Below, in pieces: positions 1-32,931 of a stretch of DNA of 64,000 bases. Source of the stretch: Betaproteobacteria bacterium (GTDB lineage: Bacteria > Pseudomonadota > Gammaproteobacteria > Burkholderiales > Burkholderiaceae_D); assembly GCA_025362735.1 (NCBI GenBank), contig JANYFL010000005.1:1-64000 (forward strand), read 5' to 3'. The first letter of the stretch is position 1; the number at the start of each line of letters is the position of its first letter. Both the position numbers and the translations under genes were made by a program. The notes beneath the pieces are model-generated. The model saw only the letters and a program-made list of their open reading frames with translations. It did no database searches and was not told the DNA's origin.

Positions 1-1
1 C

Positions 2-73
2 GGTTACTGGGGCTGGTTAACGGGTTCGCTGATAGGGCTCGTTACAGGGGTTACGGGGATTCGGGCGCGCTGA
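2..73 (+). CDS. Possible C-terminal end of an upstream membrane protein (partial)
   Basis: Frame 2 is open from the window edge to a TGA at 71-73 and reads GYWGWLTGSLIGLVTG followed by VTGIRAR. The hydrophobic, glycine-rich character fits the last membrane segment of a transporter. Only 23 residues are visible, so this may be chance; no family can be named. The rest of 74-291 shows no gene and would hold the promoter of the cupin gene. Confidence 0.3.
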   Translation, partial: GYWGWLTGSLIGLVTGVTGIRAR

Positions 74-291
74 CGATCATAAGGCCTTCTCCCCGTTCTT
101 CCTCTGCTCGCCTCTTATCATACTCGCAGGGCGATCAGGCCCCATCAAGTCAATTGCTCCTTTCTGTGAGCTTATGAAACAGTTACGTTTTGTGAATCCG
201 CACAGCAAACAGTTAGACTTGCGAATGAATGGCAAAATGTTGGCCGCACGTCAACAAAACTCTTACTAACTATATTTTCATGAGGCACTAA

Positions 292-1119
292 ATGAGCGTC
301 GACAACACAGGTGAACCCGTCGTTACCGACAAACTGATTGTTCATCGTCGCGATCTTCCGCAGCAAACTGTCTACTCTTGGGCACGTGATGGAAAAATGC
401 TGAGTGCGTGGTCCGCGGATCGTAACGTCGTACCGGTTGACGGTACCGAGATTCATTTAAGAATTATCGCTTTCCCCGGCGGCTCCATTCGCGAGATCCA
501 TCTCAACACGAGCGCCCGCACGCATCCACATGACAGTTATGAGGATGTGTTGTTCTATCAGATTGACGGACGTCGCGTGCAGATGTGCAAGGAACATTCA
601 CACGAAGTGAACCCCGGTGACGTGACCTTGGAACCTGCGGGCATTGAGCATTCGACCTACCAGTTGATTGGTGGTCTTTTTCTCGAATTTGCCTTTCCAG
701 CGCCATTGCAACCAGAGGCTGAGGCGACCTGGATTAATCGGGATCAGGTGCAAGCGATTGAGGTTGCAGAATGGATGCAAGATGGCAGGACGGTACGCGG
801 TTTCGGCGACTTTACAGTCACCGCGCCAGCCGGCGCAGCGTTTTACTCGGTGCGTAAATTCGACCTTCCGCGCTACCCGTTATTTGAGACGACTGTAGCA
901 AGGGGAACAAAGCTTTTGCCGCGCAAGGACCTTATTGATCAACTGTACTACGTGGTCAGTGGCAAATTGAATGCAATGGTCTCTGATGCCAGAGGTGAGA
1001 TACGCGACGAGGTCATGTCGGGTGATTCCATACGCACCGTGGGGGAGCACAGTTACCAGTTCACCGCTTTGGAAGACAGCGTGCTCGTCCACACTGCCAT
1101 TCCCTCAAGCGCGCTCTGA
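292..1119 (+). CDS. Double-domain cupin protein, copy 1
   Basis: A 275-residue bicupin. The N-terminal cupin keeps a full 3-His/1-Glu metal site: H78, H80, E84 in the stretch THPHDSYE and H120 in EPAGIEHS, matching cupin motifs 1 and 2. The C-terminal half (about 190-270) has cupin spacing but no histidine set, so it is probably structural. Metal cupins of this type are dioxygenases, isomerases or decarboxylases of small substrates; which one cannot be said. It is convergent with the MFS gene that follows, with only two bases between the two stop codons. The pair recurs at 3079-5463, where the cupin has the same length and the same metal residues. A transporter beside an enzyme suggests uptake and first-step processing of one compound. 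Confidence 0.85.
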   Translation: MSVDNTGEPVVTDKLIVHRRDLPQQTVYSWARDGKMLSAWSADRNVVPVDGTEIHLRIIAFPGGSIREIHLNTSARTHPHDSYEDVLFYQIDGRRVQMCKEHSHEVNPGDVTLEPAGIEHSTYQLIGGLFLEFAFPAPLQPEAEATWINRDQVQAIEVAEWMQDGRTVRGFGDFTVTAPAGAAFYSVRKFDLPRYPLFETTVARGTKLLPRKDLIDQLYYVVSGKLNAMVSDARGEIRDEVMSGDSIRTVGEHSYQFTALEDSVLVHTAIPSSAL

Positions 1120-1121
1120 AA

Positions 1122-2708
1122 TCAATGCAGAATCACCTCGGACTTGGTTGCCACAGCTTTACTTGACAACCATTTGTCCCGCGATGAATTAAGCCCTCGG
1201 CATACACACCAAAGTAAAACTACGATGATGGGGCAAATGACGAGCAGACTCAGAATGCCCATTTGCAGCGAGTCAGTAATCGTTGCGATCTTGCCTGAAA
1301 AATAAGGTCCAAGCGCAGACCCGATCATCGTTGCACCAAGGCCATGCGTGGCCATGATGGTTCCACGAAGTTTGGGCGGTACGAAATCCTGCATTGCGCT
1401 GACTGCTGAGGCACCCCAAAGCTGGAGCGTGAAAACCATACAGCCATTCAATACCGCAAATACAGTGAAACTCTGGGTGAACATCATCGCAATGATGAAT
1501 GGAATCGGCAGGACCGCTGAGAGCATCGATACAAATACGCGACCACGAGGATCTCGCTGATACCACAGATCGGAAAGGCGCCCGCCCGCAATCAATCCCA
1601 AAGCTGCGACAACCGCAGTCGGCAACCCAATCGCCAAGCCGACCTCTTCTTTACCAACTGCAAAGGTACGTAACGCGTAGGGCGAGACCCAGAACAGCAA
1701 TGAAACGGTCAATGCAGCCAGTGCGCCGAATCCACCAATCGCAAATAAAACGGTGCGGGAACCCCAGATAAAGGAATACGTTTCCGGATCGCGCGCGCGC
1801 AAGCGCTGCACCCATGACGAGACAGCATAGATCCCCAACCCGTAGGCACACCATTGTGCAACGTCCCCCGTGCCATAGATCAGCAAGGCGGCAGCCAAAG
1901 TCACTCCAATAAACACCATCAGATTGACCTTAAGGCCACCTGGGATACGTGAAGCACTCCAGAAAGTTAGTGGCGGAACGATTGCAGCCAGTTCCAGGCC
2001 GAAGGTACGCCAGGCACCCGGCTGGACGGCTGGCTCATAAGTACCATCGCTCGCGCCGCGCATTGGTTCGCGCATCATGAAAACAAGAATGGCGAGCAGA
2101 ATGCCGGGCAAGCCTACGGTCAGGTAAGCGGCCTGCCAGCCAACCAGTCCGAAAGGGCCACTTCCTGCCGGATAGACACGATTCCAGTTCGCGGCGACCC
2201 AGCCACCGATTGGCAGACTGAGTGAGCCACCAACGATGGAGGCGGCAGCATAGAGTGCATTGACCAGGGCACGCCGATTCTTGGGAAAAAGGTCACCAAG
2301 CATTGACCATCCGGCAGGTGTGGCGCTCGACTCGCCAATCGCCACGCCCATCCGCCCGATCACTAACATCGCGTAGGTGGTTGCGAAACCTGAAAGCGCG
2401 GTCATCGACGACCAGATGAAAAGTCCGATGGCAATCAGCCTGCCGCGATACCAAAGATCAGCCAGTCGTCCAAACGGAATGCCGAAGAGTGAAAAAAAGA
2501 TCGCGAAGGCAGTTCCATAAAGAAATCCCAGATCCGCATCGGTGATATGCAGGTCAGCCTTAATGTCTTGCGCAAGGATCGAGATGATCTGCCGGTCGAT
2601 CACATTGATGATGTAGACCGCGATCAAGAGACCAAGCGAATACCAGGCGTAGGGGCCGCCGAGCTTCGGGGCCGCCTGCGGGTTTGTTGAATTGTTGGAA
2701 GCTTGCAT
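1122..2708 (-). CDS. MFS transporter (spinster-like), copy 1
   Basis: A 528-residue major facilitator protein with about 12 hydrophobic segments. The motif between TM2 and TM3 is visible as GIPFGRLADLWYRGR, with the repeat-related GGRLSDLW in the second half, as in spinster-type MFS carriers. The N-terminus is nearly identical to that of the second copy at 3925-5463. Copy 1 runs about 16 residues further at its C-terminus (WLSSKAVATKSEVILH) because the position where copy 2 stops after SRDK is open here, so its stop falls two bases from the cupin stop. The substrate is unknown; co-duplication with a cupin enzyme suggests a shared small organic acid or ketone. Confidence 0.88.
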   Translation of the reverse strand: MQASNNSTNPQAAPKLGGPYAWYSLGLLIAVYIINVIDRQIISILAQDIKADLHITDADLGFLYGTAFAIFFSLFGIPFGRLADLWYRGRLIAIGLFIWSSMTALSGFATTYAMLVIGRMGVAIGESSATPAGWSMLGDLFPKNRRALVNALYAAASIVGGSLSLPIGGWVAANWNRVYPAGSGPFGLVGWQAAYLTVGLPGILLAILVFMMREPMRGASDGTYEPAVQPGAWRTFGLELAAIVPPLTFWSASRIPGGLKVNLMVFIGVTLAAALLIYGTGDVAQWCAYGLGIYAVSSWVQRLRARDPETYSFIWGSRTVLFAIGGFGALAALTVSLLFWVSPYALRTFAVGKEEVGLAIGLPTAVVAALGLIAGGRLSDLWYQRDPRGRVFVSMLSAVLPIPFIIAMMFTQSFTVFAVLNGCMVFTLQLWGASAVSAMQDFVPPKLRGTIMATHGLGATMIGSALGPYFSGKIATITDSLQMGILSLLVICPIIVVLLWCVCRGLNSSRDKWLSSKAVATKSEVILH

Positions 2709-3078
2709 AGGTTTGTGTGCCTATCTGACTGGATGCCGTTAGAGGTTAATTAATTATTGCGGCTGATTGATAAGACTTTTGTTTAAATTATGAATACAAC
2801 TCAAGCAAGCTCGCACCTTATCGCGGCGCGTTGAATGGCGCTTAACTTATCCGTGTAGTGACAAATGATGATACTGCGATCAACCGGAAAATCAGCGGCA
2901 CGCTCGAATTGTGCTCGCTTGGCGATCAGACTGCCGCAACGAGATCGCAGTCCCCTTTGACCGGCAAAACATGTTGTATATTGATTCGCCATTTCAATAC
3001 ACGGAACTCTTGCTGATTCGTGGCAACAAATGAGCGATGTACGCCAAGATCATTTTTAACTATTTTATGAGGCCTTAA

Positions 3079-3906
3079 ATGGGTGTGGATAGTCCCATCA
3101 AGCAAGCCGTTACGGACAAACTGATCGTCCATCGCCGCGACAATCCGCAGCAGACCGTCTATTCTTGGGCGCGTGACGGGAAAATGCTGAGCGCGCAGGC
3201 TCAGGATCGCAATGTCGTGCCGATTGACGGCACCGAAATCCACATCAGAAGAATTCACTTCCCCGGCGGTTGGATCCGCGAGATTCATCTCAATACCAGT
3301 GCACGCACCCATCCACATGACAGTTATGAGGATGTGTTGTTCTATCAGATTGATGGCCGTCGCGTGCAGATGTGCAAAGAACATTCGCATGAGGTGAACC
3401 CCGGTAGCGTGACGTTGGAGCCTGCGGGCATTGAGCATTCAACCTACCAGTTGATTGGCGGCCTTTTCCTCGAATTTGCTTTTCCGGCGCCTCCGCAACC
3501 GGAGGCCGAGGCGACCTGGATTGACCGGGATCAGGTGCAGCCGATTCAGATTGCCGAATGGATGGACGGCGCCAAGCTTGTCCGCGGTTTCGGCGACTTT
3601 ACGATTACTGCGCCAGCCGGTGCTGCATTTTATTCGGTGCGCAAATTCGACCTGCCGCGCTACCCATTATTTGAGACCAGTGTGCCACGAGGAACAGAGC
3701 TCTTGCCACGCAAGGATCTGGTTGATCAACTGTATTACGTGGTCAGCGGCAAACTCAACGCGACCATCACGGCGCCTGAAGGGGAAACGCGTGATGAGGT
3801 GGTAACGGGGGACTCCATCCGAACTGTGGGCGGTCATAGCTACCAGTTCGTTGCCCTGGAAGACAGTGTGCTGGTCCATACCGCAGTCCCCTCAAACATT
3901 TTTTAA
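3079..3906 (+). CDS. Double-domain cupin protein, copy 2
   Basis: Paralogue of 292-1119, also 275 residues and aligning without gaps. Metal ligands H78, H80, E84 and H120 are conserved. Differences cluster near the N-terminus and in surface positions, for example SIREIH against WIREIH. The 370-base gap before it (2709-3078) is the divergent control region between MFS copy 1 and this gene and contains no convincing gene. Conservation of the metal site and of an open frame in both copies argues that both are functional. Confidence 0.85.
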   Translation: MGVDSPIKQAVTDKLIVHRRDNPQQTVYSWARDGKMLSAQAQDRNVVPIDGTEIHIRRIHFPGGWIREIHLNTSARTHPHDSYEDVLFYQIDGRRVQMCKEHSHEVNPGSVTLEPAGIEHSTYQLIGGLFLEFAFPAPPQPEAEATWIDRDQVQPIQIAEWMDGAKLVRGFGDFTITAPAGAAFYSVRKFDLPRYPLFETSVPRGTELLPRKDLVDQLYYVVSGKLNATITAPEGETRDEVVTGDSIRTVGGHSYQFVALEDSVLVHTAVPSNIF

Positions 3907-3924
3907 GATCGCCTTGTTACTGAT

Positions 3925-5463
3925 CTATTTGTCACGTGAGGCTTTGAGTCCTCGACAGACACACCAGAGAAGAAATAGCACAATCGGGCAGATGACCAGC
4001 AGACTCAATATCCCGAGCTGAAGCGAGCCGGTAATGGTGGCGACCTTGCCTGAAAAATAAGGTCCCAGTGCCGAGCCGATCATCGTTGCTCCAAGCCCAT
4101 GCGTTGCCATGATCGTTCCGCGCAGTCTTGGCGGGACGAATTCCTGCATTGCGCTGACGGCAGAAGCGCCCCAGAAATGCAGCGTCACCACACCGCAGGC
4201 ATTCAGGACTGCAAACATGATGAAACTCTCGGTGAACATCATTGCCAGCAAAAATGGAACCGGCAATATGACCGAGAGCATCGATACAAATACGCGACCG
4301 CGCGGATCTCGCTGCACCCAGAAATCAGAAAGCCGTCCGCCTACGATCAATCCTATTGCCGCGGCTGTCGCGGTGGGTAAGCCAATCGCCCAGCCGACCT
4401 CCTCTTTACCTACTGCAAAAGTACGCAGCGCATAGGGGGAAACCCAGAAATGGATTGAAACGGAGAATGCCGCCAACGCGCCGAAGCCAGCGATCGCAAA
4501 TAAAACAGTGTGCGAACCCCAGATGAATGAATAGGTTTCCGGATCACGCGCGCGCAAGCGCTGCACCCACGACGAGACCGAATAAATCCCGAACCCGTAG
4601 GCACACCATTGTGCGACGTCCCCAGTCCCATAGATCATCAAAGCGGCCACTACAGCCACCCCGACAAACACCATCAGATTGACTTTAAGGCCACCTGGAA
4701 TTCGCGATGCACTCCAGAAAGTCAGAGGCGGAAGGATTGCGGCGATTTCAAGGCCGAACGTACGCCATGCGCGCGGCTGAACCGGTGCCTCTGCGGTGCC
4801 ATCGCTCGCGCCACGCATCGGTTCACGCATAAAAAAAACAAGAATGGCCAGCATGAGGCCGGGCAGACCTACGGTGAGGAACGCAGCCTGCCAGCCCACC
4901 AAACCCAGCGGGCCGGTTCCGTCAGGATAGACACGATTCCAGTTTGCGGCGACCCATCCGCCAATCGGCAAACTGAGCGAACCGCCAATAATGGCAGCGG
5001 AAGCGTAAAGTGCGTTGACCAGCGCACGCCGATTCTTGGTGAAGAGATCACCGAGCATGGACCAGGCGGCAGGTGTTGCACTGGATTCACCGATGGCCAC
5101 ACCGGTTCGAGCAACGACCAGCATCGCGTACGAAGTCGCAAAGCCCGATAGCGCTGTCATCGACGACCAGAAAAAGAGTCCGATCGCAATCAGCCGACCG
5201 CGATACCAAAGATCAGCCAGGCGCCCAAAAGGAATACCGAAAAGTGAATAAAAAATCGCGAACGCCGTGCCGTAAAGAAATCCCAAATCGGCGTCGGTAA
5301 TGCCCAAGTCGACTTTAATGTCCTGAGCAAGAATCGAAATGATCTGCCGGTCGATCACATTGACGATATAGACCGCCATCAAGAGGCCGAGCGAATACCA
5401 AGCGTATGGTCCGCCAAGCTTCGGTGCAGTCGGCGAATTAGTTGAAGCGTTGGAAGCTTGCAT
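3925..5463 (-). CDS. MFS transporter (spinster-like), copy 2
   Basis: A 512-residue paralogue of 1122-2708 with the same membrane topology and the same GRLADLWYRGR loop. It ends after SRDK, 16 residues before copy 1. It is convergent with cupin copy 2, 18 bases apart. The 310 bases downstream of its start (5464-5773) hold no clear gene but end in tandem hairpins that belong to the monooxygenase transcript. Confidence 0.88.
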   Translation of the reverse strand: MQASNASTNSPTAPKLGGPYAWYSLGLLMAVYIVNVIDRQIISILAQDIKVDLGITDADLGFLYGTAFAIFYSLFGIPFGRLADLWYRGRLIAIGLFFWSSMTALSGFATSYAMLVVARTGVAIGESSATPAAWSMLGDLFTKNRRALVNALYASAAIIGGSLSLPIGGWVAANWNRVYPDGTGPLGLVGWQAAFLTVGLPGLMLAILVFFMREPMRGASDGTAEAPVQPRAWRTFGLEIAAILPPLTFWSASRIPGGLKVNLMVFVGVAVVAALMIYGTGDVAQWCAYGFGIYSVSSWVQRLRARDPETYSFIWGSHTVLFAIAGFGALAAFSVSIHFWVSPYALRTFAVGKEEVGWAIGLPTATAAAIGLIVGGRLSDFWVQRDPRGRVFVSMLSVILPVPFLLAMMFTESFIMFAVLNACGVVTLHFWGASAVSAMQEFVPPRLRGTIMATHGLGATMIGSALGPYFSGKVATITGSLQLGILSLLVICPIVLFLLWCVCRGLKASRDK

Positions 5464-5706
5464 AGGCTTGTATGAAGGTTAGGTCAACGGAGCCCACCAT
5501 TAAGGCAGGCGCGGCTCTAATGCCACCCAAACCTTTGTGGGTTGAAGTGGCATGTTGCTTCCACTAGAAACAGGCAGCGTTTGACGCATCAGCGCGAATG
5601 TGGACTCAGAACAGGAGCAGCCACTCATGCTGCCCTTGCATCTCCAGCACGACAAGCGCTCACAGACCTCGCATCTGAAAAAAGCCAACTATGCTGATGC
5701 GGGGTG

Positions 5707-5764
5707 GGCAGGCCCAAGCCTGCCGAAAGAAACTGGGGCGAGCGGTCATCGATACCGCTCGCCC
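5707..5764 (-). terminator. Tandem hairpins, terminator of the monooxygenase gene
   Basis: Stem 5736-5746/5754-5764 (GGGCGAGCGGT and its complement, 7-nt loop) is an 11-bp perfect hairpin lying ten bases past the stop of the minus-strand gene at 5774. On the minus strand it is followed by the T-rich CAGTTTCTTTC. A second perfect 7-bp hairpin (GGCAGGC, loop CCAA) lies at 5707-5724. Confidence 0.75.
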
Positions 5765-5773
5765 GCTGTTGGA

Positions 5774-7078
5774 TCAGAACTCGAGCAAATTCTCGCGCAG
5801 GGTTTGATGTTTGTACTCGGTTCGTACCAGTCCGCGCTTTTGCAGGATTGGCACCAGACCATCCAAAATTTCTGCGAGATAACGACGTGTTAAAGGCCGG
5901 GCATGCATCAAGAAGCCATCGCCACCGATTTCTTCGATCGCGGCTTGCATCTTGTCTGCGACTTGATCGGGAGTGCCAATCAGTTTGAGCGAAGTCGTTT
6001 CTTGTTCAGACAGCGCTTCGCGCAAGGTGCGGCCACCTTTGGAAAGATTGACAATCGCTTGGGTGATGCCGCGGAAACCTTCGGTGTAAGTTTCGGGATC
6101 GATCTCGGGCAAGGGTTTATCCAGATCATATTTCGACCAGTCATGGCCGGTATGCAAGGTCAAACGTCCAAGCCGTTGCTTCAGGATTTGTGGCGTCATC
6201 CCGACGATTTCAAGATAGCGCTGTTGTGCGGCTTCCTCAGTGTCTGCAACCACCGGGCTAATCAGGAACATGACCCGAATATCTTTCGGATCGCGGCCAT
6301 GCGCAATAGCGCGCTTATGGATATCGTCGCGGAAATCTTTCAAGACCTTCACACTGTTTTGTCCGAACGAGGAACACAGGATGATGTCCGAATGTTTGGC
6401 TGCGAAATCGCGGCCTGTCGGCGAAGAACCCGCCTGACAGATGACCGGACGTCCTTGTGGCGAGCGTGAAACGTTCAGGGGGCCGCGCGATTTGTGCCAC
6501 TTGCCATTGAACTCAAATTCACGGAATTTTGAAGGATCGACGTAGCGTCCAGTTTCCCCATTCATCTCATAAGCATCGGGCTGCCATGCATCCCAGAGTT
6601 GCTTGACCAGATCAAGCATTTCATCGGCACGTGCATAGCGCTCGTCATGCGGTGGCTGCTTTTCGTTACCGAAGGCCTGTGCCGCCCAATCTTCGCTCGA
6701 GGTAACAACGTTCCATCCAGCGCGTCCACGCGAGATATGGTCAACCGACGCGATCTGTCGCGCCAGCAGGAATGGCGGATAAAACGAACTCGAAAACGTG
6801 CCGATAACGCCCAGCTTTTGCGTATTGGCCGCCAACAACGTAATCACGGGCAAGGGGTCAAGCCGGGGTTCCAGATTTTGCTTGTCGTTACTCAGAACAA
6901 CGTGGTCTTCGATCATGATGAAATCGAAACACATTCTTTCCAACGACTTGACCATGTCAACCAGAAAGGAACCCGTCTCCCAAATAGTCGGATTAATGTC
7001 GTTTCCCGCCCACCGGTCTGGCCCGTTCGCTGTCCAGCCGTGAGCTCTTGGATTAGTAAACCATGCGAGATGAAACAT
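5774..7078 (-). CDS. LLM-class flavin-dependent monooxygenase (NtaA/SnaA/DszA type)
   Basis: A 434-residue bacterial-luciferase-like monooxygenase. The start MFHLAWFTNPRAHGW, the segment RLDPLPVITLLAANTQ, the conserved SVDHISRGRAGWNVVTS and the QAGSSPTGRDFAAKHSD segment are signatures of the nitrilotriacetate/pristinamycin/DszA subgroup, which uses FMNH2 supplied by a separate reductase. Length is typical. Family members hydroxylate or perform Baeyer-Villiger or C-N/C-S cleavage on diverse compounds. No flavin reductase gene is seen in the window. The neighbouring aldo/keto reductase (same strand, 149 bases upstream) and the crotonase-fold hydrolase further on suggest a role in oxidising a cyclic or heteroatom substrate. 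Confidence 0.9.
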   Translation of the reverse strand: MFHLAWFTNPRAHGWTANGPDRWAGNDINPTIWETGSFLVDMVKSLERMCFDFIMIEDHVVLSNDKQNLEPRLDPLPVITLLAANTQKLGVIGTFSSSFYPPFLLARQIASVDHISRGRAGWNVVTSSEDWAAQAFGNEKQPPHDERYARADEMLDLVKQLWDAWQPDAYEMNGETGRYVDPSKFREFEFNGKWHKSRGPLNVSRSPQGRPVICQAGSSPTGRDFAAKHSDIILCSSFGQNSVKVLKDFRDDIHKRAIAHGRDPKDIRVMFLISPVVADTEEAAQQRYLEIVGMTPQILKQRLGRLTLHTGHDWSKYDLDKPLPEIDPETYTEGFRGITQAIVNLSKGGRTLREALSEQETTSLKLIGTPDQVADKMQAAIEEIGGDGFLMHARPLTRRYLAEILDGLVPILQKRGLVRTEYKHQTLRENLLEF

Positions 7079-7226: not shown

Positions 7227-8201
7227 TTAGTGCGCCGGGGCACTCGTTGTTTTAAGAATCGCATCCAGTTCAACCATATCTTCAGCGCTCGGTTCCCACG
7301 TTGCTGCAGCAGCGTTCGAGGCAATCTGGGTAGCCTTGGTTGCACCAGTGATGACTGATGATACGGCTTTTTGCGCCAACAGCCCGCCTACCGCGATATC
7401 CACCAGACTACGACCGCGAGCCTGAGCATAGGTCAACAAGTTTTCGATCAGATCGTAAACCTTGTCGTCAATCGTACGGCCTGCCAAACGTGTATCGGGC
7501 GGAACCGGACTATTGCGGCGATATTTTCCCGTCAGCAAACCATTCGCCAGAGGAAAATAAGGGAGCAAGCCGACACCGAATTTTTCACAAGCAGGCAAAA
7601 GTTCCACTTCTGCAGAACGTTCAATCAGACTGTAATGATTCTGGGCCGAGATGAAACGCTCGCAACCCTGGGTCTTCGCGATCCAATTGGTATCGGCGAC
7701 TTGCCAACCCGTGAAATGCGACGAGCCGATATAACGAACCTTGCCCTCCAATACGAGCTCATTCAACGCGTAAAGCGTTTCTTCGATCGGTGTACGTGGA
7801 TCAGGCCAGTGCATCTGATAGAGATCGATATAGTCGGTCTTCAGGCGGCGCAGGCTACCTTCACAAGCTTGACGAATATAGCGACGCGAGCCCCAGGCAA
7901 TATCATGCCGCGTGTCCATACCCGAGCCCCATTTGGTCGCCAGGACCACTTGATGGCGCCGGTTTCCCAAGATTTCACCAAGGAATGACTCCGAACCGCC
8001 TTGACCGTACACATCGGCGGTATCGAACAAATTAACGCCAGCATCGAATGCCGCATCGACGACCGCACGAGTTTGCTCGAGGTCCATGAGACCGTAAACC
8101 GTGCCGCTGGCTGCATTGATCGCATTGCCACCAAAATTATTGCACCCCAAACCGACCACCGATACGGTCAGGCCAGACTGGCCAAGTTGCCGATATTTCA
8201 T
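7227..8201 (-). CDS. Aldo/keto reductase
   Basis: A 324-residue (alpha/beta)8-barrel NADP(H) oxidoreductase. The catalytic tetrad is visible: Asp and Tyr in FDTADVYG, Lys in ATKWGSG and His in MHWPDPRTP. The N-terminus MKYRQLGQSGLTVSVVGLGC is standard. It lies upstream of the flavin monooxygenase on the same strand. The 148-base spacer contains two copies of ATCGAT followed by YAAAA (about 7154 and 7181), a possible operator. It would reduce a carbonyl or oxidise an alcohol formed in the pathway. Confidence 0.9.
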   Translation of the reverse strand: MKYRQLGQSGLTVSVVGLGCNNFGGNAINAASGTVYGLMDLEQTRAVVDAAFDAGVNLFDTADVYGQGGSESFLGEILGNRRHQVVLATKWGSGMDTRHDIAWGSRRYIRQACEGSLRRLKTDYIDLYQMHWPDPRTPIEETLYALNELVLEGKVRYIGSSHFTGWQVADTNWIAKTQGCERFISAQNHYSLIERSAEVELLPACEKFGVGLLPYFPLANGLLTGKYRRNSPVPPDTRLAGRTIDDKVYDLIENLLTYAQARGRSLVDIAVGGLLAQKAVSSVITGATKATQIASNAAAATWEPSAEDMVELDAILKTTSAPAH

Positions 8202-8411
8202 AGTTTTAGTTTTCCCTTCGGTTTACAAACGACTGTACCTTGATCGCTTGCAAGCATCATATGCCCACGTTTTGCAATCCAAAACAGCAGAGGCTGTCTA
8301 GTACAGTAACGTATCACGCGAAAAATGTACGCACATACTGTCCTGAAAAAAACGTTCACCACGCGGACAATCAGCTTCCATAATTGGTTGCGCCTCGCGC
8401 CTCCTTTTCTG

Positions 8412-9410
8412 TCAGCGTCCCTTTCTATCCACCAGCCGGGCTACCCGAAAACCCATTTCAGCTCCATGAAAATCGGCTTTGATGCCAAAACGGACAGCCG
8501 CCCGCGCGCTCCAGGGAACGTCATTCCAGGCACCTCCACGGACAATGTGCTGACTACAATCGCCATCCACTGATTTGTTGCTATTGGACGACGCGCTTGT
8601 GTAGTCGGGCTTCCAGCAATCGTCTACCAACTCCCAAGCGTTACCGATCATGTCAAACAGCCCAAAGTCATTTGGACGATATGAACCGACCGGAGCGGTA
8701 TAAACACGACCATCATCACAAGTCAGGTACTGAAACGGAACTATGGCGGGATACTTTGCCTTGAGTGTTGCATCGGCCAGATTGCCAAAAGCACATCCTT
8801 CGGCAACGGAATCACCCCAGTAGTGGGCAGTTGTCGTGCCTGCGCGCGCGGCGTATTCCCATTCGGCCTCCGTCGGTAAACGATAAGCCTTGCCTGTGAT
8901 CTTGCTCAGCCACTGGGTATAGGCAGTGGCGTCCTCCCAGGACACGCAGACCACCGGATCACGCGAGGTCTGGGCAAAACCAGGGTTTTTCCAGCTGTGT
9001 CCGTCAACTTGACGCCAGCTCTCACTCGGCACGATCTCAGCGTCTGAAAGTTCGGGCTTCAGCCAGAGACAGGAAGTCGGGTCAGGACGCCCAGTGGCAG
9101 CAACGAAGCGCGCGTACTCATCCCGTGTCACCTCGTAACGCGCGATGGCGACTGCGGCGACCGTAACCTCATGCTGAGGCAGAGATCGACCACGCAAGCT
9201 GGGGCGCACGCCTTCGCGTTCCTCTTCTTCGGCTGAAGCACCCATCAAGAAATGGCCTGCAGGAAGAACCACCATCTCAGGACAGTGCGCGCAATCGCGG
9301 ATGACTGCTTTGGACGCCGCTGCAGTCGAAACAGTTTTACCAGCCGCCATAACGGCTGAGCAAAAGAGAACTGCGGTAAAACCCAGGTAGAACACGAGCA
9401 ATTTTTTCAT
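8412..9410 (-). CDS. Exported SUMF1-fold protein 1 (FGE-like, no catalytic cysteines)
   Basis: A 332-residue protein with a signal peptide (about residues 1-22) and a SUMF1/formylglycine-generating-enzyme fold: start CPEMVVLPAGHFLMG, core VVCVSWEDATAY, YRLPTEAEWEYAARAG, and end IVRGGAWNDVPWSARAA ... MGFRVAR. In true FGE the segment after RGG carries the two copper-binding cysteines; here it reads WNDVPWS, so sulfatase activation is unlikely. Two relatives lie at 14586-15575 and 15617-16594. No sulfatase gene is visible. It may have another catalytic or binding role in the periplasm. Confidence 0.85.
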   Translation of the reverse strand: MKKLLVFYLGFTAVLFCSAVMAAGKTVSTAAASKAVIRDCAHCPEMVVLPAGHFLMGASAEEEEREGVRPSLRGRSLPQHEVTVAAVAIARYEVTRDEYARFVAATGRPDPTSCLWLKPELSDAEIVPSESWRQVDGHSWKNPGFAQTSRDPVVCVSWEDATAYTQWLSKITGKAYRLPTEAEWEYAARAGTTTAHYWGDSVAEGCAFGNLADATLKAKYPAIVPFQYLTCDDGRVYTAPVGSYRPNDFGLFDMIGNAWELVDDCWKPDYTSASSNSNKSVDGDCSQHIVRGGAWNDVPWSARAAVRFGIKADFHGAEMGFRVARLVDRKGR

Positions 9411-14585: not shown

Positions 14586-15575
14586 TTACGGCAGATCACG
14601 CGCCAAACGCAAACTCTCCGAGTTGGCATGCTGATCGGGTGAAACGGGACCCGCACGGTGCGCGGCACGCACCAGCGATGGCGCGCTGTAATAGGCACCA
14701 CCTCTCAACATATGTTCCTTGCAGCCGGGTTCTGCCCAGGCGGATCCGTCGGTCGGCGCGCCGTTGTAGTCGGGATGAAAGCAATCCGCAACCAGTTCGT
14801 AAACGTTCCCGAACATGTCATACAGCCCCCAGGGATTGGGCGGATAACTGCCGACTTCCTGTGTGAACGAACGCGGTGAATTGCAAACCAGTTCATCCTG
14901 CAAACTCTTGGGCCTGCCGAGACGATCAAATGTTTCTGCCGACATGAAGTTGGCCAGCTTGCATCCGGCGACGGCCGAGTCACCCCAGTAGCGCGCGGTC
15001 TTGGTTCCTGCTCGTGCGGCATATTCCCATTCTGCCTCGCTCGCGAGACGGTAGGGTTTTCCAGTCTTTTGCGCGAACCACTTCACGAAATCGTTTGCAT
15101 CATTCCAGCTCAGACAAGCGACAGGATGATTGTCGTTTTGATAAAAGCTGGTGTTGCGCCAGGAAAATGGGGGGCGATCATGCCAATTGTCTTCTTCACG
15201 ATTGAAAGCACCACAGCCGCCTACGGGATCGGGCCGCTTCGTATCGGCAACAAATTGTGCGTACTGGCCGCGCGTCACTTCGGTCCGGGCCAACGCGAAA
15301 GCCTTTTTAAAAGTAACCCGATGAATCGGTCCTTCGCGGTCGAAGAATTTGGGAATCACACCTTCGCGTGTTCGCTCTTCGACGGTTGAACCCATGTCAA
15401 AAGATCCCGGCGGAATCACCACCATTTCAGGACAATCGGCGCAGTCCTTGAATGTCTTGATTGCAGACGCTGTGGTTTCTTTAACCTGTTGGGCACCCGC
15501 GGCAAAAGAAATGACTGCGCTCGAAACCATGAAAACCGCAGTAAACAGTGTGGAAAAAAGTCGGCGATGAGACAT
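14586..15575 (-). CDS. Exported SUMF1-fold protein 2
   Basis: 329 residues with a signal peptide (about 1-28) and the SUMF1 core: DCPEMVVIPPGSFDMG, HPVACLSWNDANDF, YRLASEAEWEYAARAG, WGLYDMFGNVYELVADC, HMLRGGAYYSAPSLVRAAH. The FGE catalytic cysteines are absent (YYSAPSL in their place). Closest visible relative is the protein at 8412-9410, sharing ... SKAVIRDCAHCPEMVV/KTFKDCADCPEMVV. It is 41 bases downstream of the lipoprotein version at 15617-16594 on the same strand, so the two are probably co-transcribed. Confidence 0.85.
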   Translation of the reverse strand: MSHRRLFSTLFTAVFMVSSAVISFAAGAQQVKETTASAIKTFKDCADCPEMVVIPPGSFDMGSTVEERTREGVIPKFFDREGPIHRVTFKKAFALARTEVTRGQYAQFVADTKRPDPVGGCGAFNREEDNWHDRPPFSWRNTSFYQNDNHPVACLSWNDANDFVKWFAQKTGKPYRLASEAEWEYAARAGTKTARYWGDSAVAGCKLANFMSAETFDRLGRPKSLQDELVCNSPRSFTQEVGSYPPNPWGLYDMFGNVYELVADCFHPDYNGAPTDGSAWAEPGCKEHMLRGGAYYSAPSLVRAAHRAGPVSPDQHANSESLRLARDLP

Positions 15576-15616
15576 GTTGACTCCTGTGTTTTATTTATTC
15601 GCTTCGGGCAAAAGCT

Positions 15617-16594
15617 TTATTTTGAAGATGGGGTATTCGATGCATCTGGATCGCGCGCAACTCGAAATCCGATGCTGCTGCTGCGATTGGTCGGAGCAAG
15701 CCAGAATCGATTGGCCGAACGCAAAACATTTGGATAGTTGTGCCACGAACCGCCGCGAATCACGCGACGCTTGCACTGTGCTTCGTCCGGCAACGGGGCG
15801 TCATAACGCTCGCGGAAACATTCTCCGGTCCATTGCCAGGCATTGCCCAGCATGTCATGCAAGCCGAAAGGGTTGGCCGGAAAATGCTTGCCCGGATTGG
15901 TCCCGCCATAACCGTCATCACACGTCAGATTGGCCTGCGCATCACCAGGATTGTCTCGATCAAAACTCCGGTCAGCACCGTTCGCGTAACGACAAAGGTC
16001 AGTAGTGCTGTCGCCCCACCAGCGCGCCGTAGTTGTTCCCGCACGTGCGGCGTACTCCCACTCTTCTTCGCGCACCAGGCGATAACGATGCCCCGTTTCT
16101 TTAGTCAGCCACGCTGCATAGGCAGCCGCATCATTCCAGGTGACGCAAACCGCCGGGTGCTGATCGGTCTGCGCAAAAAGTGGATCGCGATAGGAGCGAT
16201 TCGTCTGCATGCCCCACTTGCCATGATCGTCAACGGTACAACCTTCAAGCACCGACTGCCTGTCGGTGGCTTTGACGAATCGATCAAACTCGGCAACGGT
16301 CACATCATACTTGCCGATTGCAAACGGCTTGCTGAAGACCACCTCGTGTAGGGGGCGTTCAAAGCCCGCTGGTTCGGGCGCGCGTTTCTCGCGGGTTGTC
16401 TCTTCCTCGGTCGAACCCATCATGAATCGCCCGGCTGGAATCATCACCAATTCGGGCGCCCATGACTGATCTCGAAAACTGCGGCCGGATTCGGCCGGGT
16501 AACCGGACGTGGGGGTTGTCGGTGTGGGGGTTGTTGGTTTCACGCCCGCACAACCAAAGAGCATCACCAGACCGATCAGAAAAAATCCACGCAT
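15617..16594 (-). CDS. SUMF1-fold lipoprotein 3
   Basis: 325 residues beginning MRGFFLIGLVMLFGC, a lipobox with Cys15, followed by a TPTTPT linker, so it is anchored to a membrane facing the periplasm. SUMF1 core: PELVMIPAGRFMMGS, HPAVCVTWNDAAAYAAWL, YRLVREEEWEYAARAG, FGLHDMLGNAWQWTGECF, RRVIRGGSWHNYPNVLRSA. WHNYPNV replaces the cysteine segment of FGE. Third member of the set in this region; fused carriers or sulfatases are not seen nearby. Confidence 0.85.
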   Translation of the reverse strand: MRGFFLIGLVMLFGCAGVKPTTPTPTTPTSGYPAESGRSFRDQSWAPELVMIPAGRFMMGSTEEETTREKRAPEPAGFERPLHEVVFSKPFAIGKYDVTVAEFDRFVKATDRQSVLEGCTVDDHGKWGMQTNRSYRDPLFAQTDQHPAVCVTWNDAAAYAAWLTKETGHRYRLVREEEWEYAARAGTTTARWWGDSTTDLCRYANGADRSFDRDNPGDAQANLTCDDGYGGTNPGKHFPANPFGLHDMLGNAWQWTGECFRERYDAPLPDEAQCKRRVIRGGSWHNYPNVLRSANRFWLAPTNRSSSIGFRVARDPDASNTPSSK

Positions 16595-25450: not shown

Positions 25451-25830
25451 GCTTGATTCTCCCAATACGTTCCGGCTTCGGTCTTGGCTACCTGTTTGCG
25501 GAAATACTCCAGTTCGGTTTTGAGACGGGCTGGTGCTATGCGCTTGCGCGTGTCCAGCATGCGGTTTCTGGCGGTATCCGAGAACTTGGCCAGGGTACAG
25601 AGGCGGCAGATCAGGCCATCAAGCTCTGCTGCATCGGTTAGCCATTGGATACTTTCCTGGACATCTGGATCGGCCAGAGCGGCCAGCAATTCGACCTTGT
25701 GAAACTTCAGACGTGCCGTCAGTTCCGGCGTCATCTTATCCGCCGGGGCGCGGTATTTCAGTTGCCCACCATCCGCTTCCAGCTTCACGCCGATGCCTCG
25801 TAGCTCAATCAATAAAGCCGTTGCACTCAT
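25447..25830 (-). CDS. TubC_N-like docking-domain protein
   Basis: 127 residues. The first 50 (LLIELRGIGVKLEADGGQLK ... LTARLKFHKVELLAAL) look like the TubC N-terminal docking fold, which on mobile elements often accompanies replication proteins. It starts by an ATGA overlap with the RepA-like gene, so translation is coupled. The remainder (LDGLICRLCTLAKFSD) has a Cys pair but no known motif. Confidence 0.65.
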   Translation of the reverse strand: MSATALLIELRGIGVKLEADGGQLKYRAPADKMTPELTARLKFHKVELLAALADPDVQESIQWLTDAAELDGLICRLCTLAKFSDTARNRMLDTRKRIAPARLKTELEYFRKQVAKTEAGTYWENQA

Positions 25831-27047
25831 ATCGTCCCCTCGATTTCTTCAACGCCTGCAAGGGCGTCTGGGGCGTTTTCAGCATCAACTTGTTCATGTT
25901 GCTCAACTTGCTCAACGTTTGAATGTTGAGCATCTTGAGCAAGTTGATTGAACCCCTTGGGTAAATTCCAGTACCAGACCCCTCCGATCCCCTTGGACTT
26001 GATAACTTTCATGGCGTCCGCAGCACGCCTTACCGATGCCCACGAAACGCCTGCATTGGCCGCTTCCTCCTTCACGGCCTTTGAGGGCGTCAGTCCATCG
26101 GCCAGCACTTGTCGAACAAAGTCAGTCGCTGCATCGACCGCACTTTTTTCCTTAGATTCACCGTCCTGACCATCAGGCTCAGCCAGCAACTCCCGCGCCG
26201 TTCCTGCCACGGCTTGACCCCACATAATCCGGCTGGCTTGAATGCCAGGTAGTGCTTCCAACTGTTCAATGTGATATTCAAAACCGCCATCATCCGGCCC
26301 GATGTTGGACTTGCCACGCGCCAGAATTCGCCGGTCTTGTCCATCTTCACTGTGTACTTTGGCAGCCACCAGAACGACCCGCGCTACCGCCGTGAAAGCA
26401 ATCGAACCAACCACCCGCGAAGCCGGATCATTGCCCGCACCGCCCTTGCTGAAATGACTGATCCCCAATACCGCTGCATCTAAACGACTGGCCAGATCAA
26501 CCAGCGGTTGCATGGCGCGTCTGACTTCAGTGTTTTTGTGACTATCCCCTGCAACAGCAGAAACGACCGGGTCAACAACCAGCAGACTTGCACCGCCGAC
26601 CTTGATTGCTTGTACCTCCAACGCGGCCATGTCTCTCGCCGGATCAAACGATTGCACTTCACCGTCGATACGTGTGCCGTTCACGAAATAGCAACGTGTC
26701 CGGTCTGCACCAGCGGCCAGCAAACGGGGGAGCAGCGTATCGGCTGGATCGTCTTCACCGCTCCAGATCAGCACGTTCCCCGGTGCGCAGCGTGAGCCAT
26801 CCGGCCAGCGTCCACCGATGGTCACGGTTGCCGCCATGGCAATGGCAATCGTGGTTTTGCCCTGCCCCGGCGCGCCCGCAAGAATGTGCAGCTTGCCTAG
26901 TGCCAGCCAGTCCGGCCACAACCAACGAACAGGCTCTGGCGTCAATTCAGAGCCGTTAATCAGAACCACGCCATCGCTCCTGGCAATCGCACCATCCAGC
27001 GCCGCAGCGCCGCGTTCCACTCCTGACCAATCCGGTTCATGCGCCAT
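25827..27047 (-). CDS. RepA/DnaB-like replicative ATPase (AAA_25 type)
   Basis: 406 residues from ATG 27047 with AAAGGA upstream; a frame start at 27104 is less likely. RecA-fold ATPase: Walker A GAPGQGKTTIA, Walker B-type SLLVVDPVVSA, and the ISHFSKG motif after it, followed by a C-terminal wing (DFVRQVLADGLTPSKAVKEE) like a helix-turn-helix. This is the helicase of RepA-type plasmids and P4-like elements. It overlaps the primase gene by 11 bases. Together with that gene it gives the element autonomous replication potential. Confidence 0.85.
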   Translation of the reverse strand: MAHEPDWSGVERGAAALDGAIARSDGVVLINGSELTPEPVRWLWPDWLALGKLHILAGAPGQGKTTIAIAMAATVTIGGRWPDGSRCAPGNVLIWSGEDDPADTLLPRLLAAGADRTRCYFVNGTRIDGEVQSFDPARDMAALEVQAIKVGGASLLVVDPVVSAVAGDSHKNTEVRRAMQPLVDLASRLDAAVLGISHFSKGGAGNDPASRVVGSIAFTAVARVVLVAAKVHSEDGQDRRILARGKSNIGPDDGGFEYHIEQLEALPGIQASRIMWGQAVAGTARELLAEPDGQDGESKEKSAVDAATDFVRQVLADGLTPSKAVKEEAANAGVSWASVRRAADAMKVIKSKGIGGVWYWNLPKGFNQLAQDAQHSNVEQVEQHEQVDAENAPDALAGVEEIEGTI

Positions 27048-27462
27048 GATTAGCCATCCTTTCTGCGGCCTGAATCCGGTTTGCGGCGATGACCAGGCGG
27101 GCATGGTCTATCGAATTCAGCGCGGCGTTGCGCAGCAGAATCGTGGAACACTGATGCACGATCAACACCTCAAAACCGATGCACTTCAAAATATCGTGAG
27201 CATTGAAGGAGCGTCGTTCTTTCGGCAAATGTTGGTCGGTCAATCGTTCAGGAAACAAGTCCTGAAATTCGAGACCGATTGCAGCCAGCACTTCCGCTGC
27301 TTCACAACTTGCGAAGCAATGCAAGAGAACCCGGCCCTCATCTAGTTCGCGAACAGCCAGCGACGGGCTTTTATCATCGTGCGCCGGACATCGCGCAATC
27401 CAGCGGCCAGCGCCGGTCTTGCGTACTTTGTCGAGACGGGAAAGCAAGGTATCGACACTCAT
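27037..27462 (-). CDS. CHC2 zinc-finger primase N-terminal domain, stand-alone
   Basis: 141 residues from ATG 27462. The zinc ribbon is clear: CPAHDDKSPSLAV and LLHCFASCEAAEVLAAIGL supply Cys, His, Cys, Cys. The protein ends before any Toprim catalytic domain; the last 70 residues (HDILKCIGFEVLIVHQCSTI) do not show it. So it is either a template-recognition subunit acting with the RepA-like ATPase or a shortened primase. It starts by an ATGA overlap with the preceding gene. Confidence 0.8.
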   Translation of the reverse strand: MSVDTLLSRLDKVRKTGAGRWIARCPAHDDKSPSLAVRELDEGRVLLHCFASCEAAEVLAAIGLEFQDLFPERLTDQHLPKERRSFNAHDILKCIGFEVLIVHQCSTILLRNAALNSIDHARLVIAANRIQAAERMANHGA

Positions 27463-30607: not shown

Positions 30608-30919
30608 TTACGCCGCCTTGCGCTTCGGCGACTTGATCGACAGCTTGGCATTCAGCCCAGCCAGCGCCGCCATGTTGACCAGTGCGTCCAGGGAAAATTC
30701 ACCGATTGCCCCTTTCAGCAAAGCATTCAGGCGCGGTTGCCGCACGCCGATTTGCTTGGCTGCTGCTGCCTGGGTTAGGCCACTTTGGTGATACCACGCA
30801 GTCAGGGCCATCATGCAATCGGCGCGCATGGACAGGTTGGCCGCTTCGCCCGCGTCAAAGCCAAGATCGGCAAAGACGTTGCCGCTCCCTTTTTCGATCA
30901 GTAGTTTTTCGGCTTTCAT
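30608..30919 (-). CDS. higA: XRE-family antitoxin (HigA-like)
   Basis: 103 residues with a helix-turn-helix: LTQAAAAKQIGVRQPRLNAL then LKGAIGEFSLDALVNMAALA, the XRE/HigA-type layout. It follows the toxin gene with a 4-base ATGA overlap, the HigB-then-HigA order. It would bind the toxin and repress the shared promoter upstream of 31239. Confidence 0.82.
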   Translation of the reverse strand: MKAEKLLIEKGSGNVFADLGFDAGEAANLSMRADCMMALTAWYHQSGLTQAAAAKQIGVRQPRLNALLKGAIGEFSLDALVNMAALAGLNAKLSIKSPKRKAA

Positions 30920-31239
30920 TGTTTGGCTTCCATAAGTTGACGGTAACGGGTTGTTGCAATGTCCAGATCAGGTTTCGTAGTCTTGCGAGTTTTCTTCGCA
31001 AAGGCGTGCAGCACATAGACTGCACTACCCAGCGTAGCGAGGTAAATCACGCGATGCTCACCATCCACATGCAGGCGAATTTCACGCACTCCCGAACCAA
31101 CGGTCGGCATGGGTTTCCAGTCTGCCGGATCATCGCCTTGCTGCACCCTGTCCAACTGATAACCCGCCTCTCGCTTTGCTGTCACTGGAAATCCGGCAAT
31201 GGCCTTGCGACTTGCACCCAGAAAAAACAAGGGCTTCAT
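30916..31239 (-). CDS. higB: HigB/Gp49-like toxin (RelE superfamily)
   Basis: 107 residues. The Gp49 pattern is plain: MKPLFFLGASRKAIAGFP, GSGVREIRLHVDGEHRVIYL, AVYVLHAFAKKTRKT. RelE-fold toxins of this group cleave ribosome-bound mRNA. The pair would stabilise the island in its host. Adjacent to the integrase gene (49 bases). Confidence 0.85.
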   Translation of the reverse strand: MKPLFFLGASRKAIAGFPVTAKREAGYQLDRVQQGDDPADWKPMPTVGSGVREIRLHVDGEHRVIYLATLGSAVYVLHAFAKKTRKTTKPDLDIATTRYRQLMEAKQ

Positions 31240-31287: not shown

Positions 31288-32508
31288 TTATCCGGCCCGA
31301 TGGATTGGAATCACGTCCGCACCCAGACGCAACTTGTCCAGATAGTCGGCCCAGCGCTGCATCATCTCGCGCCGTGCCGGTAAGTGCGCAGTGCGGTTAT
31401 AGGCCCGTCCATTGGTGTCCTTCACCGCATGCGCCAGTTGATGTTCAATCAAGTCCACGCGTTCCCCTAGCACTTCATCCATGATGGTGCGTGCCATGGC
31501 ACGGAAGCCGTGGGCACAATGAACCTCTGCGCTGTAACCCATACCACGCAACGCAGCATTGATGGTGTTCTCGCTCATGGGACGTTCACCCGTTCGGATG
31601 CTGGGGAATACATATCCGCCATGCCCAGTAATCGGATGCACGCTGCGCAGAAGCTCAACGGCTTGGATGGGCAGTGGCACGAGATGATCCGCCTTCATTT
31701 TCATTTTGCTGCCAGGGATTCGCCACTCTGCCTTGTTTAGGTCGATCTCGGCCCATTCCATTGTGCGCAATTCACCGGGTCGGACAAACACCAAAGGGGA
31801 CAGCTTGAGTGCCGCTACGGTGCAGGGGTGCCCCTGATAATCGTAGATCGAGCGCATCAATTCACCGGCCTGCTTTGGTTCGGTGATCGCTGGGAAATTC
31901 TTTGACGTCCTAACCGCAAGCGCCTCGCTCAGATCAGCGGTTACGTCACGCTGTGCCAAGCCTGAAACGACAGCGTACCGGCACACTTGCCCGCAGAGTT
32001 GCTTGACTCGATGCGCGGTATCAATCGCCCCGCGTGCTTCCAGCTTGCGCAAGACGGCCAACACATCACGCGGCCCGATCTTGGACATTGACATTTTGCC
32101 GATGAAGGGGAAAACGTCCTTTTCAAGCCAGGTCTTTACTTTCTCTTGTGTGCTGTCCATTCGACTTGCTGCCGTTCTAGCCAACCAGTCCCGCCCCACC
32201 GCTTCAAAGGTATTAGCCGCCGCATCAGCCATGGCTTGCTTTTCCTCGCGCTTGGCTAGACTCGGATCAATGCCGTCAGCGAGAAGCTCTCTTGCCTTAT
32301 CGCGCCGCTGCCTGGCTTTAGCTAGCGATACCGCCGGATACACGCCTAGGGCCAAGGTCTTTTGTTTGCTTAGAAAGCGGTAGCTCATGCGCCAATACTT
32401 ACCGGCCGCTTTGACGTGCAGGTATAGCCCCTGTCCGTCGGTGTGCTTTTCACCCGCTACCGATGCCTTAGGTTTGACGTTCTTAACGAATGTATCGGTC
32501 AGTGCCAT
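31288..32508 (-). CDS. int: P4-type tyrosine integrase (DUF4102 arm domain)
   Basis: 406 residues from ATG 32508 (AAAAGGGG upstream); the frame is open to 32643 but the extra part runs into the tRNA-Cys terminator. N-terminal DUF4102: MALTDTFVKNVKPKASVAGE, TDGQGLYLHVKAAGKYWR. Catalytic domain: Arg in RPGELRTMEW, HxxR in HGFRAMART, with Tyr in GRAYNRTAH. Such enzymes recombine at tRNA 3' ends. The gene lies 177 bases from tRNA-Cys, pointing away from it. Confidence 0.92.
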   Translation of the reverse strand: MALTDTFVKNVKPKASVAGEKHTDGQGLYLHVKAAGKYWRMSYRFLSKQKTLALGVYPAVSLAKARQRRDKARELLADGIDPSLAKREEKQAMADAAANTFEAVGRDWLARTAASRMDSTQEKVKTWLEKDVFPFIGKMSMSKIGPRDVLAVLRKLEARGAIDTAHRVKQLCGQVCRYAVVSGLAQRDVTADLSEALAVRTSKNFPAITEPKQAGELMRSIYDYQGHPCTVAALKLSPLVFVRPGELRTMEWAEIDLNKAEWRIPGSKMKMKADHLVPLPIQAVELLRSVHPITGHGGYVFPSIRTGERPMSENTINAALRGMGYSAEVHCAHGFRAMARTIMDEVLGERVDLIEHQLAHAVKDTNGRAYNRTAHLPARREMMQRWADYLDKLRLGADVIPIHRAG

Positions 32509-32520
32509 GGCATACCCCTT

Positions 32521-32585
32521 TTGTTGGTATCTCTGACATTGATTTTTGAGATACCCATTCAAAGTACCAACAAATTGTTGGTATG
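32521..32585. promoter_or_regulatory. Inverted and direct repeats ahead of the integrase gene
   Basis: TACCAACAA (32565-32573) and TTGTTGGTA (32575-32583) form a palindrome with one central base, and TTGTTGGTAT also occurs at 32521-32530. AAAGTACC at 32561 matches the left-end repeats. Likely integrase arm or AlpA/Xis sites; they also overlap the integrase control region. Confidence 0.55.
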
Positions 32586-32620
32586 TCATGGTAGCCCCTG
32601 AAACGACTTGAGGCAATAAA

Positions 32621-32652
32621 AAACCCGCAATGCTAGGAAACATGCGGGTTTT
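32621..32652 (-). terminator. tRNA-Cys terminator
   Basis: AAAACCCGCA (32621-32630) pairs perfectly with TGCGGGTTTT (32643-32652), 12-nt loop; on the minus strand the stem is followed by TTTTATTG. It sits 32 bases past the 3' end of tRNA-Cys and is carried by the element side of the junction. Confidence 0.8.
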
Positions 32653-32684: not shown

Positions 32685-32758
32685 TGGAGGCGGGGACGGG
32701 AATCGAACCCATATAGACGGCTTTGCAGGCCGCTGCATAACCACTCTGCCACCCCGCC
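32685..32758 (-). tRNA. tRNA-Cys (GCA)
   Basis: 74 nt including encoded CCA. Acceptor arm GGCGGGG/CCCCGCC, discriminator T, anticodon loop CCTGCAAAG with anticodon GCA, T-loop GGTTCGATTCC. The 3' 20 bases contain the island's attachment core, so this 3' part may be supplied by the element. Confidence 0.95.
32692..32704. repeat. Putative right attachment site in tRNA-Cys
   Basis: GGGGACGGGAATC, the T-arm/acceptor stretch of tRNA-Cys, identical to 20974-20986. Integrases of this family commonly cross over here. Confidence 0.6.
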
Positions 32759-32822
32759 ATGAGGTTTGCACGACAAAATTTTTGCTCGGGCAACCATAAT
32801 TTCGAGTCGACCATCAAGCAAA

Positions 32823-32849
32823 AAGGGAAGCCGCAGACTGGCTTCCCTT
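32823..32849 (-). terminator. Rho-independent terminator after tRNA-Gly
   Basis: AAGGGAAGCC (32823-32832) and GGCTTCCCTT (32840-32849) form a 10-bp perfect stem with a 7-nt loop; the minus strand continues TTTTTGC. It is seven bases past tRNA-Gly. Since it separates the two tRNA genes, tRNA-Cys depends on read-through or its own promoter. Confidence 0.85.
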
Positions 32850-32855
32850 GAAAAT

Positions 32856-32931
32856 TGGAGCGGGAGACGAGGCTCGAACTCGCGACCTCAACCTTGGCAA
32901 GGTTGCGCTCTACCAGCTGAGCTACTCCCGC
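32856..32931 (-). tRNA. tRNA-Gly (GCC)
   Basis: 76 nt including CCA. Acceptor GCGGGAG/CTCCCGC, D-loop AGCTCAGCTGGTAGAGC, anticodon loop TTGCCAA with anticodon GCC, T-loop GAGTTCGAGCCTC. The Gly-Cys order matches the conserved glyW-cysT pair of Proteobacteria. Confidence 0.96.

Follow-up and report, generated by a model that had tools for sequence, protein, structure and literature searches.

Two neighbouring units, each composed of a bicupin-type gene and a Spns-like MFS carrier gene in convergent orientation, were found at the beginning of the analysed window (the whole stretch of DNA under study, 64,000 nucleotides). We favour, with somewhat better than even confidence, an old tandem duplication of a carrier/metal-enzyme module within a catabolic cluster, after which both pairs were kept. 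The arrangement itself is an ordinary gene duplication.

Unit 1 extends over positions 292-2708 and unit 2 over positions 3079-5463, with coding spans of 2,417 and 2,385 bases, respectively. In unit 1, the cupin gene (292-1119, forward strand) encodes a bicupin-type protein of 275 amino acids with the metal set H78, H80, E84 and H120 in its N-terminal half, and the MFS gene (1122-2708, reverse strand) encodes a Spns-like protein of 528 amino acids which carries a C-terminal tail of 16 residues. In unit 2, the cupin gene (3079-3906, forward strand) again encodes a bicupin-type protein of 275 amino acids with the same N-terminal metal set, and the MFS gene (3925-5463, reverse strand) encodes a Spns-like protein of 512 amino acids. 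The original prediction of two convergent cupin/MFS units of about 2.4 kb in one order was thereby confirmed, as all four reading frames lie at the expected positions. The predicted tail of MFS 1 is also real; comparison of the two copies showed TGG in copy 1 at the place where copy 2 reads TAG. The prediction's reading of this tail as the product of a lost stop takes the TAG of copy 2 as the ancestral state, and a stop gained in copy 2 would give the same pattern. As was likewise predicted, MFS 1 ends two bases from the stop of cupin 1 (positions 1120-1121 lie between the stops), whereas the stops are separated by 18 bases in copy 2. Measured between the starts of the longest repeats, the spacing of the units is 2,787 bases for the cupins and 2,755 bases for the carriers. 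MFS 1 and cupin 2 are divergently oriented, and the intergenic DNA that separates them (2709-3078, no strand assigned) is mostly diverged from the DNA 5' of cupin 1, the two being alike near the start codon and in one short block farther upstream. The units display the features by which tandem duplicates are recognized: they are neighbours, share gene order and orientation, and are similarly alike in both of their genes.

The two cupins show 83% identity at the protein level and 78.4% at the DNA level, while the two MFS carriers show 85% and 79.9%, respectively. The identities of both gene pairs are far above chance. The differences are located mainly at third codon positions, with 36, 25 and 117 differences at the first, second and third positions in the cupin genes and 61, 27 and 221 in the MFS genes. 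The dN/dS values obtained with NG86, YN00 and LWL85 were 0.092-0.128 for the cupins (dS 0.92-1.19) and 0.085-0.110 for the carriers (dS 0.77-1.08). The dN/dS comparison proposed along with the original prediction therefore gave about 0.085-0.13 in both genes, which supports retention under purifying selection. The base composition of the copies is close, with GC of 0.537-0.558 and GC3 of 0.58-0.63. The duplication is old and both coding sequences are held under constraint. Judged from their sequences, both copies look functional.

Features of the cupins and carriers

The residues H78, H80, E84 and H120 form a complete HxH/E/H metal set in both cupins, situated in the N-terminal half only, and the C-terminal cupin half is without such a set in both copies. 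The earlier statement that the metal residues are intact in both cupins is correct for the N-terminal half but does not extend to the C-terminal half. The proteins resemble the cupin superfamily and its bicupins in having jelly-roll type matches in both halves along with the N-terminal HxH, E and H set. The Cupin_2 (PF07883) match, located at residues 70-121 or 72-121, scored 24.6 and 25.3 bits in the two copies, below the curated cut-off of 27.2, and the match in the C-terminal half, to the jelly-roll type cNMP_binding model at residues 201-266, was also under the Pfam curated cut-off. AraC_binding was the sole model to reach its cut-off in copy 1 (21.7 bits against 21.1), and scored 19.9 bits in copy 2. 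No NCBIfam family was matched at cut-off by the cupins. In the Cupin_2 score and the absence of a C-terminal metal set and of an NCBIfam family, they differ from Cupin_2 and other bicupins, and their sequences would place them as bicupin-type proteins, not as filed members of Cupin_2.

Two AlphaFold models for the cupin, both built on three-row alignments, were poor (mean pLDDT 53.5 and 47.6), and the metal half was the worst part. In a Foldseek search with the poor first model, a small cupin ranked first (E 3.2e-4), followed by further folds of the superfamily; the matches, a mixture of small cupins (4e2g, KdgF), JmjC oxygenases and CRP-type regulators, are suggestive at most. As the fold models are poor, the cupin assignment leans on the sequence motif and the weak profile matches.

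In total, 47 of the 275 residues differ between the cupins. Only one of these differences falls within the 73 residues of the region 66-138, and the other 46 are distributed over the remaining 202 residues (Fisher p 3e-6, for a region picked post hoc). Three non-conservative changes, I58R, A60H and S65W, are located just ahead of the metal motif. The pattern leans weakly towards the same chemistry in different surroundings, the region having been picked after seeing the data. Retention of both pairs may reflect either of the reasons offered with the original prediction, dosage or two related substrates. The low level of change in residues 66-138 could also indicate that both pairs are kept for dosage only and serve one substrate, a reading which we regard as possible, if on the doubtful side. 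The longest identical run between the copies, 44 bases spanning the cupin metal motif, agrees with it and is a possible conversion tract. However, dosage copies are usually recent or kept alike by conversion, whereas the present copies are old and a run test gave weak evidence of conversion (in two tests, p 0.039 with the cupins and 0.80 with the carriers); the three non-conservative changes beside the metal motif also speak against dosage as the only reason.

An enzymatic role of the cupin has points against it, as no cupin relative with known function was found and the weak Pfam matches include ligand-binding domains. The protein could be a small-molecule-binding protein or a sensor and no enzyme, and the weak AraC_binding and cNMP_binding matches, the former just over cut-off in copy 1, together with the lack of any relative with a known reaction, are consistent with this. 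We consider it unlikely, since no DNA-binding domain was matched by Pfam across the 275 residues and both copies retain the full His/His/Glu/His set, which falls where the protein has changed least.

The two carriers matched MFS_1 (PF07690) at 112.2 and 116.8 bits, well above the cut-off of 33.4. Among proteins of solved structure, Spns transporters (HnSpns and SPNS2) match MFS 2 best in sequence, with HnSpns of Hyphomonas neptunium (PDB 6e8j, E 1e-36) in first place. The HnSpns study (PMC9440201) names Asp41, Arg42, Trp102, Thr106, Arg122 and Glu129 as residues of proton coupling and substrate binding. These residues correspond to D38, R39, W99, T103, R119 and E126 of MFS 2 and are identical in MFS 1; the alignment with HnSpns was made with MFS 2, and the residues of MFS 1 were read through the comparison of the two carriers. 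The description of the carriers as spinster-like is borne out by the HnSpns match and by identical proton-switch residues in both copies. The carrier thus appears to be Spns-type and is probably proton-coupled. Unlike HnSpns, MFS 2 has about 80 residues between its two halves (254-333) which remained unaligned and include an extra hydrophobic stretch at 259-277.

Distribution and origin of the two pairs

The cupin was searched in whole genomes at E 1e-3, in genome sets which overlap and are mostly samples. In the family, one of 294 genomes was matched, namely the window's own, with no match in the 293 other sampled genomes. In the class, 2 of 369 genomes were matched, the own genome and one with a match of 48 residues; in the phylum, the count was 2 of 398, the second being a match of 49 model positions. 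Two further sets lay apart from the own genome. In the class of genome G786, 1 of 48 genomes gave the same partial match as in the phylum search, and in the class of G664, 4 of 385 genomes gave matches, all partial. No full-length cupin relative was found outside the own genome in the sampled sets, and every foreign match was partial and covered at most 86 model positions. Within the own genome, cupin 2 matched only cupins 1 and 2 and a third bicupin on contig C48. Pattern scans yielded 20 and 594 matches in genome contigs and 98 and 1 in viral contigs, none of them a confirmed cupin relative; the scans with 594 and 98 matches used two short patterns and are weak. No plasmid matched the cupin 2 protein, the C48 bicupin had only two partial Thermus matches among plasmids, and the DNA of positions 292-5463 had no match in phages or plasmids. 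Among the papers listed on cupin/spinster/MFS clusters and on bicupin tandem duplication, the arrangement was not found. These results suggest that the cupin is rare, as far as genome sets that are mostly samples and scans with short patterns reach. For the MFS carrier, the top-ranked plasmid match was from Novosphingobium (33.5% identity over 96%). At E 1e-60 or better, a search of 300 genomes of the order matched MFS 2 in a single one, the window's own; this threshold purposely drops ordinary Spns relatives, several of which are present in that genome.

The lack of a cupin match in the 293 other family genomes, along with an integrase gene by tRNA-Cys, means that the region may be acquired, and the synonymous divergence between the copies is high (about 0.8-1.2). 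Two related pairs could accordingly have been gained separately from diverged donors and now be adjacent, which appears quite unlikely to us. Tandem duplication is the simplest way to account for the shared order, the shared orientation and the direct adjacency; the copies are also close in GC and GC3, and the tRNA end occurs once in the genome with no island boundary found.

The tyrosine integrase gene (31288-32643, reverse strand) is positioned beside the tRNA-Cys and tRNA-Gly genes (32685-32931, reverse strand). To its left are a gene for an AAA_25 protein (25827-27104) and, by eye, toxin-antitoxin-like small genes (30608-31239). The integrase region is probably an integrated element. The tRNA end, considered as a candidate attachment site, did not recur in the genome when up to 3 mismatches were allowed, nor by exact 16-mers in the window or in the examined stretches of contigs C48, C66 and C25. 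In the DNA upstream of mfd in eight relatives, the tRNA-Gly/tRNA-Cys order was present in one (G008), a tRNA-Arg in another, and no tRNA in the other six. Apart from the window's own genome, G008 gives the best single mfd match, and in its locus L049 the tRNA-Gly/tRNA-Cys pair (319-590) stands beside mfd with other genes beyond. With a tRNA end that occurs once, we place no boundary and do not assign the cupin/MFS region to this element.

Gene surroundings and the contig edge

The gene neighbourhood of the two units looks catabolic. To their right are genes for an NtaA/DmoA-type FMN monooxygenase (TIGR03860, above cut-off) and an aldo-keto reductase identified by Pfam. MFS 2 is set apart from the FMN monooxygenase gene by a terminator-like stem of 11 pairs (5736-5764, reverse strand), which is a consensus match only. 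Positions 1-5900 contain 9 terminator-like sites, compared with a mean of 7.2 sites in shuffles, and this stem is the one with the most pairs. Elsewhere in the window, two adjoining PvdO-like proteins, both under the NCBIfam cut-off, are encoded at 14586-16594 (reverse strand), and with a third protein of sulfatase-modifying-factor type at 8412-9410 they possibly represent another local duplication.

The window starts at base 1 of contig C25 (127,220 bases), and its positions 1-141 (forward strand) are exactly the last 141 bases of contig C48 and the first 141 of contig C66. We take this overlap to mark a fork in the assembly graph, at which the C48-C25 join is one of two alternatives. C66 is perhaps a strain variant, an alternative neighbour of C48; beyond the shared 141 bases it has, by eye, genes like AMP-ligase, lgt and ilvD. 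If C48 joins, a flavin reductase/nitroreductase gene would be situated to the left of the units, followed by the third bicupin gene (7324-8232 of locus L012 on C48, reverse strand). This would put its start about 1.5 kb away from that of cupin 1 (L012 coordinates minus 9,422), with three bicupins within about 6 kb. The third bicupin is 30% identical to cupin 2 and shares the two-half layout, but it has not kept the N-terminal HxH and possesses an N-terminal extension that is signal-peptide-like by eye. C48 continues to the left with genes for tannase-family esterases, a TonB receptor, GMC and FAD-binding oxidoreductases and an IclR regulator. One tannase-family gene (L012 5665-7234, forward strand) is apparently split over two overlapping frames, of which the second was scanned. 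An assembly artefact in which one pair was counted twice, the objection raised with the original prediction, is extremely improbable: the window does start at a contig edge with an assembly fork, but the copies stand in one 127 kb contig with reading frames kept and differences mostly at third codon positions, and DNA divergence of about 20% within one contig excludes an artefactual second copy.

Proposed function of the modules

Under the preferred reading of an old tandem duplication with both pairs kept, each module would combine a soluble bicupin-type protein, whose single predicted metal centre lies in the N-terminal half, with a carrier of Spns type that is probably proton-coupled. The carrier would move an organic compound, probably amphipathic or acidic. 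The cupin, with a bound divalent metal, would cleave or rearrange the carried compound or a product of it. A functional pairing of cupin and carrier is suggested because the two genes occur as a pair twice, although they are convergent and not one operon. After the duplication, which would have occurred in place, purifying selection would keep both pairs, leaving the metal core nearly unchanged as its surroundings diverge.

A broader proposal can be made which we rate as improbable. It holds that a new bicupin family has three members in about 6 kb, two of them duplicated with Spns carriers and one apparently exported, which form the entry steps of an uncharacterised plant-type/phenolic ester pathway, and that the duplicated pairs have split substrates.

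As a modest example, the region presents a carrier and a putative enzyme gene which occur twice as a unit and are both kept under selection. If the cupins are enzymes with different substrates, the two units would provide a compact natural pair for transporter/enzyme co-divergence, along with a function for a cupin-type protein which matches no NCBIfam family at cut-off.
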